Source: Kribbella sp. CA-293567
GTDB lineage: Bacteria > Actinomycetota > Actinomycetes > Propionibacteriales > Kribbellaceae
NCBI RefSeq assembly: GCF_027627575.1
Contig: NZ_CP114065.1
Location: 2,976,001-3,040,000, forward strand
Direction: 5' to 3'
Length of the DNA stretch: 64,000 nucleotides
Shown here: positions 3,604-59,634 of the stretch, in pieces
Position numbering within the stretch: position 1 is the stretch's first letter
How the letters are laid out: each line of letters starts with the position of its first letter
Program-made: the position numbers and the translations under genes
The notes under the pieces: generated by a model
Told to the model about the DNA's origin: nothing
Seen by the model: the letters and a program-made list of their open reading frames with translations, nothing else
Database searches by the model: none

Positions 3604-4451
3604 GGCCGACCATGGTGGCCGTCCGCGCGGGCTTCGCGCGCGGATGGATCGAGTTCAGCAAGAAGCTCAAGAGCCCGTGGGAGCTCTCGGGCGAGGTCTG
3701 GCCCTGGATCGTTGCTGTTGGCATCATGTATGCGCTGCGCGACAAGACGGTCCCGGGGACCAGTTTCTCCATCGGTCTGCAGGCCGTCCCCGGCATCCTC
3801 GGTATGACCATCATCTACACCGGGCTGATGGGCCTGGCGCTGGCGTTGACCACCGACAGGGACGACGGCACGCTGCTGCGGATGAAGGCGGTGCCCAACG
3901 GAACGATCGGCTACTTCATCAGCAAGGTCGCGAGCCGGGCGGCGATCACGGTGGCTTCGCTGCTCATCGTGCTCATCCCTTCGGTGCTGCTTTTCAGCGG
4001 ACTTCAGGTCGACAGCGTCGGCTCGTGGATGAAGCTGATCGGCATCATCGCGCTGGGCTTGGTCGCCACGTTGCCCATCGGTGCTGTGATCGGTGCGGTG
4101 TTCAACAGTGCGCAGAGCCTCGGACTGGTGATGCTGCCGATCATGGGCCTCGTCGCGATCTCTGGGATCTTCTACCCGATCACCGCTTTTCCCGAGTGGG
4201 TGCAGTGGATCGGGCAGGTCTTCCCGGTCTACTGGCTCGGGCTGGGGATGCGCGCGGCGTTGCTGCCGGGCGAGATGGCGGTCGCCGAGGTCGGTGAGTC
4301 GTGGCGGCATCTGGAGACCATCGGCGTACTGGGTGTCTGGGCCTTGATCGGGTTCTTCTATGCGCCCGTCGTACTGCGGCGGATGGCTCGCCGCGGGTCC
4401 GGCTCGAGCGTGAAAGAAGCTCTGCCGGAGAAGGCGCCCGCAACTGTCTGA
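3600..4451 (+). CDS. ABC-2 type transporter permease
   Basis: A 283-residue membrane protein with about six hydrophobic helices and no ATPase motifs. It matches ABC-2 permeases (DrrB-like), with the usual PITAFPEWVQWIGQVFPVYW region near the end. Start is ATG 3600, overlapping the TGA of the ATPase gene (ATGA), so the pair is translationally coupled and forms one exporter. The gene is expected to respond to the TetR regulator upstream. Confidence 0.92.
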   Translation: MRPTMVAVRAGFARGWIEFSKKLKSPWELSGEVWPWIVAVGIMYALRDKTVPGTSFSIGLQAVPGILGMTIIYTGLMGLALALTTDRDDGTLLRMKAVPNGTIGYFISKVASRAAITVASLLIVLIPSVLLFSGLQVDSVGSWMKLIGIIALGLVATLPIGAVIGAVFNSAQSLGLVMLPIMGLVAISGIFYPITAFPEWVQWIGQVFPVYWLGLGMRAALLPGEMAVAEVGESWRHLETIGVLGVWALIGFFYAPVVLRRMARRGSGSSVKEALPEKAPATV

Positions 4452-55259: not shown

Positions 55260-56242
55260 CGGGCCACCTCCAGTTGCCGCGTGCGCGGATCCAGCAGTCC
55301 GTGCAGAACATCACCCAGCTGGTTGCCCGTGTAGACGAACACGGTGGTGAACAAAGCGATCCCGAGCAGGAGCGGGACGTCCTGCCCGAGGGCCGCTGCC
55401 GTGGTCGCCGCGCCGAGGCCGGGGTACGAGAAGACCTGCTCGGCGAGCAGCGATCCGCCGAAGAGTTCACCCAGCGAGCTGAACTGAAGCAGCAAGGCGG
55501 GGCCGGCGGCGTTGCGGAGTACGCGGTGGACGACCAGGCCGGTGGTGCTCTCACCCTGGGCCCGGGCGAAGGCGATGTAGTCGCTCGACATCGCGACGGC
55601 GACGGCCTGCCGGGTGTGCAACACCACCGGCGCGATACCGACCAGGCTCAGCGTGACAGCCGGGAGCAGCAAGTGGTGCAGCCGGTCGAGGATGCCGACC
55701 TCGCCGGCAAGCTGACCGACCGGTACGGCGCAGCACACCGGCATCCACTGCAACGACACCGAGAACGCGTAGAGCAGCAGCAGCCCGACCCAGAAGGTCG
55801 GCGCCGACGCCAGCGTGTACGCCCACCAGGTGATGGCTCGGTCGGCCCACCGGCCCCGTTGCAGACCGGCGACGAGACCGAGGCCGAAACCGATCACTCC
55901 CGACAGGCACCAGGCGACCGCCATCAGGGCGAGGCTGGTCAGGAACTTGCCGGCGATCACGTCGGCGACGGGTTGGTTGAAGGTGTGCGACTGGCCGAGA
56001 TCGCCGCGGACGACCTGCGACAGCCAGCTGCCGAACCGTTCGAGTGGCGGGTCGTTCAAACCCCAGCGCTCGGCGATCTGGGCGCGCTGCTCGGGCCCGA
56101 TCGCGGCGATGTCCGCGCCGACGTAGGCGTCCACCGGATCGACCGGGGAGCCCATCATCAGCGCGAACGACGCCGCGGCCACGGCCGCCAGGAGGAACAA
56201 CAGCCTGACCAGCCGGCCCACAACGTTGGTCAGCAAGTCCAT
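55256..56242 (-). CDS. ABC transporter permease (DppB/NikB-like)
   Basis: A 328-residue permease with six helices. The DppB pattern is seen: LGQSHTFNQPVADVI, the inner-loop VLLHTRQAVAVAMSSDYIAFARAQG (EAA region) and FSYPGLGAATTAAALGQDVPLLLG. The start ATG 56242 lies inside the end of the substrate-binding protein gene, overlapping by 13 bases. Confidence 0.92.
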   Translation of the reverse strand: MDLLTNVVGRLVRLLFLLAAVAAASFALMMGSPVDPVDAYVGADIAAIGPEQRAQIAERWGLNDPPLERFGSWLSQVVRGDLGQSHTFNQPVADVIAGKFLTSLALMAVAWCLSGVIGFGLGLVAGLQRGRWADRAITWWAYTLASAPTFWVGLLLLYAFSVSLQWMPVCCAVPVGQLAGEVGILDRLHHLLLPAVTLSLVGIAPVVLHTRQAVAVAMSSDYIAFARAQGESTTGLVVHRVLRNAAGPALLLQFSSLGELFGGSLLAEQVFSYPGLGAATTAAALGQDVPLLLGIALFTTVFVYTGNQLGDVLHGLLDPRTRQLEVAR

Positions 56243-57834
56243 CGCCAGCCGGTGATGCCGGCCGTGACCGGCCAGCCGTGGCCGTGCGGCTCGATCTGCG
56301 GCTTGCCGATGTCCAGGCAGTCGCTGACGAAGTAGGTGTGCTGGAGATTGACCAGCCAGGCCCAGGCGGCATCGCCGGACGGACCGAACCCGTTGCCGTC
56401 GGCATCGCGCTGCGCGGCCTTCCAGTACTTCGTCGCGGCGTCCTGGGTGGTCGCCGCCATCGCCGCGTCGAGGTTCTTCTGCACTACGGGGTTCGAGTAG
56501 AAGCCGGTGTTCCAGTACTCCGTACCGGCCTGCGCCGACGAGTAGAGGTTGTACATCTCACTCGGGTCGTGGCTGCCCCAGCCGAACAGTACGGCGTCGA
56601 CGTGTTTGCGCTTGTCGATCACGTCCCAGGCCACGCCCTGCGCCTTGATCTGAATGCCGACAGGCTTGAGCATGTCGGCCACACTCAGCGCGAGTCCCTG
56701 CCGCAGTGTGTCGTCGGCCGGGTAGAGCAAGGCGAAAGCCGCCTTGACGCCGTTGCGCTCGCGGACGCCGTCGCGGTCGATCCAGCCCGCCGCGTCCAGG
56801 ATCGCCTTCGCCTTTGCCGGGTCGTTGTCCTGGATCGCCGAGGCCGGCTCGTACCACGGCATGCCGTCGACCGGCCCGGTCGCGGGGGAGCCGTAGCCCT
56901 CCAGGACGCCTTCCACCAGAGCGTCGCGGTCGACCGCGTAGTTGACCGCCTGCCGGATCGCTTGGTCGGAGGTGACGTCGTTGCCGATCGGCAGACCGGC
57001 CTTCGACTTCTGGCCGGTGTCCGGAACGGTGGGGAACATCAGGCCCCGGTTGTCGACCGACTGCACCGGAACCAGCCTCATCCCCGGCGCTGTGGTCCTG
57101 GCCAGCCCCGACGGGACGGCGGCCATCGCCACCTGACCCGCCTTCGCGGCCGCCAGGGTGGCGTCCTCCGCGGTGAAGGTGAACACGACCCGCTGGAAGG
57201 CCGGCTTGGTGCCGTAGTAGGCGTCGTTGCGCTGGACGATCAGCTGCTGGCCCTCGTCCCACTGGACGAAGGTGAACGGCCCGGAGCCGATCGGCTTGCG
57301 GGCATAATCCTTGCCATGGGCATGTTTCGGCACGATGCCCAGGGAGATCAGCCGGTTGACGAAGGTGCTCTGCGGTCGGCTGAGCCGCAGCTCGACGGTG
57401 TCGTTGTCAAGGGCAACTGCCTTCGCGAGCGCGGTGACATCGGTCAGCCCGCCGCTTCTGGCCGCGGTGCTGAAGGTGTACGCGACGTCCTCGGCGGTCA
57501 CCGGCCGGCCGTCGCTGAACTCGGCGTCGTTGCGCAGGTCAACGGTCCAGACCAGCCCGTCGGCGCTGACCGAGTGCTTGGTGGCGAGATCGTTGACGAC
57601 CTTGAGCTCGGCGTCCCGGGCGAGCAGCGTCGACTGGAACAACGGTGATCCGTACCGGCCCCAGCCGAGAGTCGGGTCATAGCCGTCCTCCGACTCACCG
57701 CCGATCGCCAGCCGGAGCTCGTCCGCCGTACCGCCGGAACTGCTGCCGGAATCGGCACCGGACATGCAGGCGGTCAGCACCGCCGACGCAGCCAGTACCG
57801 CCACCGCTGCAGACCACTTCCTGCCCCCACTCAC
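56230..57834 (-). CDS. ABC transporter substrate-binding lipoprotein (family 5)
   Basis: A 534-residue lipoprotein anchored outside the membrane. Signal peptide with lipobox LTAC (Cys23) and a Ser/Gly linker. The mature protein matches SBP family 5 (peptide/nickel/opine): VWTVDLRNDAEFSDGRPVTAEDVAYTF region, later PIGSGPFTF and VDRDALVEGVL. GTG 57834 has GGAGG seven bases upstream; GTG 57837 is equally possible. The ligand (dipeptide, nickel or a metal-chelate) is not clear. It is divergent from the valine operon; the shared gap is highly structured. Confidence 0.92.
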   Translation of the reverse strand: MSGGRKWSAAVAVLAASAVLTACMSGADSGSSSGGTADELRLAIGGESEDGYDPTLGWGRYGSPLFQSTLLARDAELKVVNDLATKHSVSADGLVWTVDLRNDAEFSDGRPVTAEDVAYTFSTAARSGGLTDVTALAKAVALDNDTVELRLSRPQSTFVNRLISLGIVPKHAHGKDYARKPIGSGPFTFVQWDEGQQLIVQRNDAYYGTKPAFQRVVFTFTAEDATLAAAKAGQVAMAAVPSGLARTTAPGMRLVPVQSVDNRGLMFPTVPDTGQKSKAGLPIGNDVTSDQAIRQAVNYAVDRDALVEGVLEGYGSPATGPVDGMPWYEPASAIQDNDPAKAKAILDAAGWIDRDGVRERNGVKAAFALLYPADDTLRQGLALSVADMLKPVGIQIKAQGVAWDVIDKRKHVDAVLFGWGSHDPSEMYNLYSSAQAGTEYWNTGFYSNPVVQKNLDAAMAATTQDAATKYWKAAQRDADGNGFGPSGDAAWAWLVNLQHTYFVSDCLDIGKPQIEPHGHGWPVTAGITGWRWTC

Positions 57835-57932
57835 CACGGACCCTCCAGCCGCTCGCACCGACCGGTAAACCTACTTCTAGATGCGACTCGATCGCAACTG
57901 CCAATCCACCCCTCAGCCCCCCGCCGCAGACC

Positions 57933-57996
57933 TACCCCAGCGGGTAGTGGGTTACCCCCGGTTCGAACCGGGGGTAACCATCCACTCGCTGGGGTA
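57933..57996. repeat. 64-bp near-perfect palindrome
   Basis: The core (57950-57979) is a perfect 30-bp palindrome centred on TTC|GAA. Outer arms TACCCCAGCG (57933-57942) and CGCTGGGGTA (57987-57996) match perfectly around the same centre. Only the 7-base connectors are imperfect. It lies in the divergent gap before the SBP gene. Confidence 0.9.
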
Positions 57997-58008
57997 ACTC
58001 TGCGACGT

Positions 58009-58047
58009 GGGGAGGGCGGGCAGGGGAGGGGGTGGGCTGGGGAGGGG
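58009..58047 (+). other. G-tract cluster (possible tandem G-quadruplex)
   Basis: Eight runs of three to five G within 39 bases, separated by one or two bases. This satisfies the G3+N1-7 rule twice over on the plus strand. Confidence 0.7.
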
Positions 58048-58067: not shown

Positions 58068-58105
58068 TAGTAGGACGTCCAGCTATATAGTCGGCCGTCC
58101 TAGTA
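58068..58105. promoter_or_regulatory. 38-bp dyad, candidate operator of the valine operon
   Basis: TAGTAGGACG (58068-58077) and CGTCCTAGTA (58096-58105) are inverted with one mismatch. The centre CTATATAG (58083-58090) is itself palindromic about the same point. It lies 30 bases before the mmsA start and could be a repressor site over the -10 region. Confidence 0.6.
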
Positions 58106-58134
58106 GTTGAGCCCTGACGTACGGGAGAGACACG

Positions 58135-59634
58135 TTGAGTAACGAGCTGAGCCATTTCGTGGCCGGGCAGCACGCGGCGGGGACCTCGGGGCGGTTCGCC
58201 GACGTCTTCGATCCCAATACCGGAGCCGTGCAGGCGCGGGTGCCGTTGGCGAGCAAGGCCGAGGTCGTGGCAGCGATCGACGACGCCGAGCGGGCTCAGC
58301 TGGAGTGGGCCGCGTGGAACCCGCAGCGGCGGGCACGGGTGCTGCTGCGGTTCCTCGACCTGGTCAACCGCGACCTGGAGTCGCTGGCGCGGACCCTGTC
58401 GAGTGAGCACGGCAAGACCGTTCCCGACGCCAAGGGCGACATCCAGCGCGGCCTCGAGGTGATCGAGTTCGCCGCCGGGGGACCGCACCTGCTGAAGGGG
58501 GAGTTCACCAGCGGCGCCGGAACGGGGATCGACGTCTACTCGCTGCGCCAGCCGCTCGGGGTGGTGGCCGGCATCACGCCGTTCAACTTCCCGGCGATGA
58601 TTCCGCTGTGGAAGGCCGGACCTGCTTTGGCGGCCGGCAACTCCTTCATCCTCAAGCCGTCCGAGCGGGACCCCTCGGTGCCGTTGCGGATCGCCGAACT
58701 GTTCCTCGAAGCGGGTCTGCCGGCCGGGGTGTTCAACGTCGTCAACGGGGACAAGGAAGCCGTCGACACGCTGCTGGAGGACGAGCGCGTCCGGGCGGTC
58801 GGCTTCGTCGGGTCGACCCCGATCGCGCAGTACATCTACGAGACCGCGGCCGCGAACGGCAAGCGGGCCCAGTGCTTCGGTGGCGCCAAGAACCACATGA
58901 TCGTGATGCCCGACGCCGATCTCGACGACGTCGCCGACGCGCTGATCGGGGCCGGTTACGGCTCGGCCGGTGAGCGTTGTATGGCGATCTCGGTCGCCGT
59001 ACCGGTCGGGCAGGAGACCGCCGACGCCCTGGTGGCGAAGCTCAAGGAGCGGATCGCCGACCTGACGGTCGGCCACAGCCTGGACGAGAAGGCCGACTAC
59101 GGTCCGCTGGTCACCGCGGAGGCCCGGCAACGGGTGATCGACTACATCGCCGCCGGTGTCGAGGAGGGCGCCGAGCTGCTGGTCGACGGCCGCAACTTCG
59201 TGCTGGCCGGCCACGAGTCGGGCTTCTTCCTCGGTCCGACGCTCTTCGACCGGGTCGGGCCCGGCATGCGGATCTACGACGAGGAGATCTTCGGGCCGGT
59301 CCTGGTGGTGGCGCGCGCCGACACCTACGAGGACGCGCTGCGGCTGCCGAGCGAGCACGAGTACGGCAACGGCGTCTCGATCTTCACCCGCGACGGCGAC
59401 ACCGCCCGCGACTTCACCGCCCGGGTCAACGTCGGCATGGTCGGGGTCAACGTGCCGATCCCGGTGCCGATCGCGTACCACACCTTCGGCGGCTGGAAGC
59501 GGTCCGGTTTCGGTGACCTGAACCAGCACGGTCCCGACTCGTTCCGCTTCTACACCAAGACCAAGACGGTCACGTCGCGGTGGCCGTCCGGCGCCAAAGA
59601 GGGTGCCAGCTTCGTCATCCCGACGATGAGCTGA
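58135..59634 (+). CDS. mmsA: CoA-acylating methylmalonate-semialdehyde dehydrogenase
   Basis: A 499-residue dehydrogenase that turns methylmalonate semialdehyde into propionyl-CoA. The catalytic Cys282 lies in AGERCMAIS, the hallmark of the CoA-dependent family, with Asn in ITPFNFPAM. The start is TTG 58135 with GGGAGAG upstream. It begins a five-gene operon for valine breakdown. The promoter region carries a 38-bp dyad. Confidence 0.95.
   Translation: MSNELSHFVAGQHAAGTSGRFADVFDPNTGAVQARVPLASKAEVVAAIDDAERAQLEWAAWNPQRRARVLLRFLDLVNRDLESLARTLSSEHGKTVPDAKGDIQRGLEVIEFAAGGPHLLKGEFTSGAGTGIDVYSLRQPLGVVAGITPFNFPAMIPLWKAGPALAAGNSFILKPSERDPSVPLRIAELFLEAGLPAGVFNVVNGDKEAVDTLLEDERVRAVGFVGSTPIAQYIYETAAANGKRAQCFGGAKNHMIVMPDADLDDVADALIGAGYGSAGERCMAISVAVPVGQETADALVAKLKERIADLTVGHSLDEKADYGPLVTAEARQRVIDYIAAGVEEGAELLVDGRNFVLAGHESGFFLGPTLFDRVGPGMRIYDEEIFGPVLVVARADTYEDALRLPSEHEYGNGVSIFTRDGDTARDFTARVNVGMVGVNVPIPVPIAYHTFGGWKRSGFGDLNQHGPDSFRFYTKTKTVTSRWPSGAKEGASFVIPTMS

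Follow-up and report, generated by a model that had tools for sequence, protein, structure and literature searches.

A genus-restricted, REP-like palindrome family at gene ends in Kribbella, with a possible role as a two-way 3′ hairpin

The long palindrome that separates an importer operon from a valine operon in our window (the whole 64,000-nucleotide stretch of Kribbella sp. CA-293567 DNA analyzed here) is one of about 21 copies of a dispersed, noncoding, near-perfect palindrome in that genome (G000). The family is restricted to the genus Kribbella among the genomes sampled. On balance we favor, with somewhat better than even confidence, reading it as a REP-like family of gene-end palindromes that likely works as a bidirectional 3′ hairpin without a U-tract.

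The palindrome itself is real and far beyond chance. Its 30-bp core (GGTTACCCCCGGTTCGAACCGGGGGTAACC; 57950 to 57979, unstranded) is perfect, the pattern matching both strands with 0 mismatches, and its left 10-bp outer arm (TACCCCAGCG; 57934 to 57943, plus strand) pairs perfectly about the same center with the right one (57986 to 57995, minus strand), exactly as the first-pass annotation had described. The 64-bp length given there does enclose a dyad but falls short of its extent: the imperfect stem reaches about 57917 to 58012, with arms of 48 to 50 nt and 83 to 84% complementarity, and a covariance model made from other species only (R2) matches at 57915 to 58014 (50.9 bits, E = 4e-8). In the 88-bp frame of the family, the unstranded element occupies 57921 to 58008. 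Among the 11 inverted repeats found in the window at the settings used, none is longer, and the dyad is indeed, as had been claimed, longer than an ordinary operator or terminator requires. Positions 57920 to 58010 fold as single-strand DNA to -37 kcal/mol, versus -16.6 kcal/mol for shuffles (z = -8.3), and as RNA, the two strands fold to -65.6 and -74.3 kcal/mol (z = -9.5 and -10.2 against shuffles). Four short units are laid out along the element: unit 1 (57931 to 57938, plus strand) reads CCTACCCC in this copy, where the family form is GTTACCCC; unit 2 (57951 to 57958, plus strand) reads GTTACCCC; and units 3 (57971 to 57978) and 4 (57991 to 57998), both on the minus strand, read GGGGTAAC on the plus strand.

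The first-pass annotation had advised looking in related genomes for the dyad, in this gap or others, and comparing its arms for compensatory changes. The dyad does recur in other gaps, and its arms do show such changes. A search of the single G000 contig (7,611,196 bases) returned 27 matches at 16 places, and the core pattern, allowing 3 mismatches or fewer, occurs at 9 places on both strands (reversed control, 0). Covariance model R1 finds 21 places in this 7.6-Mb genome at E < 0.001 (42 strand rows, with two further rows marginal). Sixteen copies align gap-free over 88 columns with a mean column identity of 75%, and the element measures 88 to 89 bp without gaps in G000 copies and sister elements together. 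Under the symmetric structure, 26 of 42 pairs in the 16-copy alignment have changed on both sides (19.5 in shuffles, with 26 reached by 1 of 500), in a family where some copies come in pairs and are not independent (3095771/3095900, 7358187/7359288, and two pairs in G030). In the same alignment, 74.0% of pairing cells pair, versus 38 to 51% with the partner slid, and the covariation score was reached by 0 of 500 shuffles. Counts of further pair types are a weak control, matched in 35 of 500 shuffles for the 16-copy alignment and in 36 of 500 for alignment A3, which enters each element on both strands and is fitted to the structure; alignments A1 and A2 are preferred as support. Two of the G000 copies (3095771 and 3095900) lie 129 bp apart, and beside some copies extra units stand in tandem, about 20 to 23 bp apart by eye (L015 after 4081, L144 after 4091, and L016 at 4121 to 4208).

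We then followed the family through the genus. The genus is taken as Kribbella because the best named relative of the protein next to the element belongs to K. antibiotica, at 93%, and the next follows at 80%. R1 matches 29 of 38 Kribbella genomes, G000 included. R2 matches 35 of the 38 and none of 109 genomes sampled elsewhere in the order, under stricter filters that lose weak matches. The per-genome R2 counts are lower bounds, with 150 candidates scored per genome: at least 114 strand rows in G028 and at least 87 in G030, places being roughly half as many. In all, R2 finds 17 of the 21 G000 copies at E up to 0.01; this recovery by a model from sister species alone indicates that the two letter sets belong to one family. 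Nine sister-species elements align gap-free, mostly with GGGGTTAACCCC or close to it outside and GGGTTGCCCC or close to it inside, and in them 22 of 38 pairs have changed on both sides, with 89.8% pairing versus 39 to 53% with the partner slid. In the sister elements inspected, which carry GGGTTAACCC outside and GGGTTGCCC inside, the outer-to-inner spacing is also 20. One of them (L053) has its outer and inner units 20 apart and its inner pair 22 to 23 apart by the GGTTGCCC match, and the inner-to-inner spacing is not fixed, ranging from 20 to 23 between species. The pattern across genomes is that each species amplifies its own letter set. No description of this family was found among the open-access papers searched.

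Of the 21 copies in G000, 11 stand in convergent gaps, 9 in codirectional gaps, and the window copy alone in a divergent one; copy 818002, printed as codirectional by the gene caller (10/10/1), has a minus-strand gene against its right edge and is for that reason placed with the convergent ones. The window copy does have divergent neighbors, the importer operon and the presumed mmsA operon, as first noted, and a terminator would be odd there; that objection applies to this copy and not to the other 20 of 21. Genes at the copies were called by a purpose-made script rather than a published gene finder; since the script places start codons only roughly, distances to starts are approximations. Element-free gaps in the window and in the other loci examined amount to 3,451 bp convergent, 14,765 bp codirectional, and 8,668 bp divergent (13, 55, and 32% by bp), and against these shares the 21 copies show a convergent excess (binomial p = 1.6e-5) and a divergent lack (p = 0.003). 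G028 and G030 together carry roughly 100 copies; of the 42 that score best, 40 could be classed, as 17 convergent, 18 codirectional, and 5 divergent (two of the 5 in one gap, and L221 with a further predicted gene at its edge), and 2 more lie at contig edges. Codirectional copies are closer to the upstream stop than to the downstream start in 8 of 9 cases in G000 and 15 of 18 in G028 and G030. At least one adjoining gene 3′ end is found at 20 of the 21 G000 copies, the nearer end lying anywhere from overlap to 180 nt away, and stem and stop codon are often only a few bases apart. Ordinary hairpins (score of at least 12) in element-free gaps of the same genome obey the same placement rule and fill the same niche: 6 of the 16 convergent gaps have one, as do 5 of the 57 codirectional gaps and none of the 29 divergent gaps.

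This placement suggests how the family may act. Transcription running through a convergent or just-behind-stop copy from either side would produce an RNA hairpin of about 35 to 40 pairs, predicted at about -65 to -75 kcal/mol in four folds from G000, and this hairpin would probably pause or end transcription and shield 3′ ends. Its effect would be equal on both strands because the element is symmetric. As in an intrinsic terminator, the hairpin sits at a gene 3′ end in 20 of 21 copies; there is no U-tract after the stem, with 0 to 5 T in 15 nt over the copies and no T-tract on either strand, and no terminator-like site was found in the window gap. Streptomyces terminators mapped by Term-seq also contain little U, and their hairpins are the longest (PMC12207403); the long, stable 3′-end hairpins of high-GC actinobacterial intrinsic terminators, with few U and with covariation, resemble the Kribbella elements (PMC12207403). 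Unlike those Streptomyces terminators, the Kribbella elements are repeats that share their letters and a single length, and many orthologous gaps lack them. The missing T-tract speaks against the hairpin reading, as do other observations. Over 28 codirectional copies read on the transcribed strand (by the other edge rule, under which the G000 copies divide 10/10/1), G-T and A-C mismatches number 44 and 50 (p = 0.30), and this near equality bears no mark of selection acting on RNA pairing specifically or, through wobble pairs, on the RNA strand. Many orthologous gaps manage without a strong hairpin, as described below, and the window copy is itself divergent.

The closest likeness among known repeats is to REP elements, especially the CGTC REPs, which have no known transposase: these too are dispersed palindromes found mostly behind coding regions (PMC3733652), likewise convergent or codirectional and adjoining both stops in convergent gaps (PMC3733652), and likewise organized in species-specific families, several per organism (PMC3733652). 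In the REP survey, REPs in convergent gaps mostly lie no more than 20 bp from the 3′ end of each of the two genes, and those in codirectional gaps lie near the upstream 3′ end (PMC3733652); the Kribbella element shares this location behind genes in convergent and codirectional gaps. It differs in length (88 to 89 bp, against a REP unit of 20 to 40 bp [PMC3733652]), in its four units 20 bp apart, and in lacking the REP tags, with GTAG/CTAC near the ends in just 3 of 21 copies and CGTC/GACG in 4 of 21. The survey read the high frequency of GT pairs in stems as indicating transcription (PMC3733652); in the Kribbella elements, GT and AC are about equal. The words Kribbella, Actinobacteria, and Nocardioides are absent from the main text of that survey (PMC3733652). 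The Y1 (RAYT) transposase domain PF01797 was found in 1 of 38 genomes of the genus (G008) and not in G000, with 5 of 14 controls positive, and RAYT mobilization is thus rejected for G000. Its length, lack of tags, and lack of a Y1 transposase place the Kribbella element outside the tagged REP superfamilies. ERIC sequences are long, imperfect intergenic palindromes of 127 bp in enterobacteria; set beside them by description, the Kribbella element is similarly intergenic, about a hundred bases long, and confined to one group, and differs from ERIC in length and host. No known Rfam family was recovered at gathering score: Rfam 15 gave no match in L024, L011, L204, or L211, and around the window copy it gave miRNA hairpin matches only, all below gathering.

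The gaps themselves turn over rapidly between species. We searched for the flanks of 18 copies (the last one in part) in three relatives, which yielded 22 orthologous gaps, at 10 sites, readable from both sides. One holds the family (L193), 4 hold an unrelated hairpin scoring at least 13, 2 hold a marginal one, and 15 score below 10, by a scorer that misses wide loops (for certain in L195, one of the 15, and by eye in L182 and L183); the 15 low-scoring gaps count against any need for a hairpin. Seven of the 22 are no longer than 41 bp. The family is also present in L203, a gap anchored on one side only, and thus in 2 of 26 relative loci at E < 0.001 (weaker rows in L198, L201, and L194, at E of 0.018 to 0.09, were left uncounted), and strict orthologous conservation is rejected. 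In one convergent gap, two species carry this family, each with its own letters, and the third (G030) carries a dispersed hairpin unrelated to it. The 846-bp gap L183 in G030 contains several copies of a motif like GCGAGGTGACGCGAAGCGTCACGAGC, another palindromic repeat.

Two further palindrome families emerged from these comparisons. One, in G028, is represented by 22 rows at 9 places, with none in G030 or G000; its 5 examined copies (L263 to L267) are 94 to 100% identical, with identical 30-bp ends and a variable middle, and lie in 2 convergent, 1 codirectional, and 2 divergent gaps. The other, in G030 (L184 and L268 to L282), has a near-perfect long stem at gene ends and is represented by 82 strand rows at 42 places in G030 and 6 rows in G028, with 8 convergent, 7 codirectional, and 1 divergent among 16 copies examined. 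Several palindrome families therefore occupy one gene-end niche, which can also be empty, and the pattern is one of gaps that gain, lose, and swap such hairpins. MITEs are short, noncoding, dispersed elements with inverted ends, and the G028 family looks like a recently active one; copies so nearly identical indicate that hairpins of this class moved recently. In the case of the window family, the whole element is an inverted repeat, and short orthologous gaps exist, with flanks too different to define a target-site duplication; PF01797, the one domain looked for as a parent transposase, is missing from G000.

This turnover could also mean that the palindromes are selfish or passive MITE- or REP-like repeats of no benefit to the host, spread by some enzyme and left behind genes as insertions into promoters and coding sequences are lost. 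We regard this as unlikely, though a serious alternative. Species-specific amplification, the many empty orthologous gaps, the near-identical G028 copies (2 of 5 of them divergent), and the position of the window copy in a divergent gap at a derived junction are all in keeping with it. Loss from promoters alone, however, hardly explains why codirectional copies crowd up to the stop codon (30 of 34 in three sets together) or why copies concentrate in short convergent gaps, and conserved letters and covarying arms persist among copies only about 75% alike; the lack of a Y1 transposase in G000 also weighs against it. Across species, one gap can hold this family or an unrelated hairpin, and other gaps that carry the element are empty in relatives, which makes termination and mobility testable by comparison. 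Kribbella thus offers natural replicates for termination without a U-tract and for RAYT-less repeat spread in high-GC actinobacteria, and the elements could be of use in marking species and as symmetric parts for terminators.

The regular spacing of the units raises a different possibility, namely, a site read in DNA. Over the 21 G000 copies, the GTTACCCC unit begins every 20 bp, at -34, -14, +6, and +26 relative to the center, and is present with at most 1 mismatch in 10, 19, 19, and 12 of them, respectively. E. coli REPs are targeted by gyrase, and four units spaced about two helical turns apart might similarly bind a Kribbella topology, nucleoid, or roadblock protein at gene ends. The near-invariant unit letters, the 20-bp outer-to-inner spacing retained in the sister elements inspected, and the symmetry of G-T and A-C mismatches, which reveals no RNA-strand preference, would all fit such a site. 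We nevertheless think it improbable: a protein that reads double-stranded DNA needs no compensatory changes between the units, the inner-to-inner spacing varies between species, and conservation is poorer in the outer units than in the inner pair. A more elaborate proposal, which we put forward as a long shot, is a Kribbella-specific gene-end system read by sequence, in which four putative protein-binding units, 20 bp apart on an 80-bp palindrome, would form a two-way DNA- or cruciform-level barrier, the arms would be kept symmetric by DNA-level correction, unrelated families would compete for the niche, and spread would be by a non-RAYT route. If true, converging transcription units in this genus would be separated by a barrier specific to it.

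We next considered the window locus itself. To the left of the element, the first gene of the importer operon encodes an ABC importer solute-binding protein (SBP_bac_5; 56230 to 57858, minus strand, start codon not fixed), and to the right, the first gene of the valine operon encodes an aldehyde dehydrogenase (Aldedh by Pfam; 58135 to 59634, plus strand), which we take to be methylmalonate-semialdehyde dehydrogenase (mmsA). Each has its own promoter dyad outside the element. The importer dyad (ATGCGACTCGATCGCA; 57881 to 57896, unstranded) is kept in outline in G033, G009, G020, and G023, a comparison that uses the sequences of L257, L258, and L261 plus a 20-base match in L262 and leaves out L259 and L260; it is likely the operator of the importer. 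The mmsA dyad (TAGTAGGACG..CGTCCTAGTA; 58068 to 58106, unstranded), with TAGGACG/CGTCCTA half-sites, looks much the same in G028, G030, G004, and K. antibiotica, where L142 (G004) and L059 (K. antibiotica) look like one species and are to be counted once; it is likely the operator of the valine operon. Relatives of mmsA at E up to 1e-80 were found in 5 of 38 genomes; for the importer 5′ region, with E no higher than 1e-40, the number was 7 of 38, G000 being counted in each. G000 and G020 alone carry both at these strict thresholds for DNA matches; the two lie on separate contigs in G020, and none of the relatives searched showed them side by side.

Neither R1 nor R2 matches before mmsA in 5 relative loci or around the first gene of the importer in 6. 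The first-pass annotation had proposed checking relatives for the same dyad at this site or in other gaps: at this site it is absent, and it occurs in many other gaps, with compensatory changes in its arms. We infer that the window copy occupies a derived junction, with a separately conserved promoter on each side, and probably arrived there as the two units were joined, which would make it most likely a passenger of the rearrangement, at most insulating both promoters. The position of this copy between the divergent importer and valine operons had suggested that it might be the operator of a large regulator of both, or be left over from integration or replication; we now consider either highly improbable. 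The remaining 20 of the 21 copies are found elsewhere in the genome, at gene ends, and the relatives lack the element at either operon yet keep the other dyads there, which speaks against an operator conserved at the promoter. An attachment relic fares no better: no tRNA was found, and no plasmid or phage matched at blastn sensitivity, so an origin in either is rejected. The center of the palindrome, GGTTCGAACC, resembles a tRNA T-arm, which had pointed to such a site; it varies among copies, and a tRNA or attachment site is rejected on this ground as well. The neighbor of mmsA differs between species: a cobalamin riboswitch (Rfam RF00174) lies divergent from mmsA in K. antibiotica and G020 (L059, 3674 to 3886, minus strand; L143, 1099 to 1308, minus strand).
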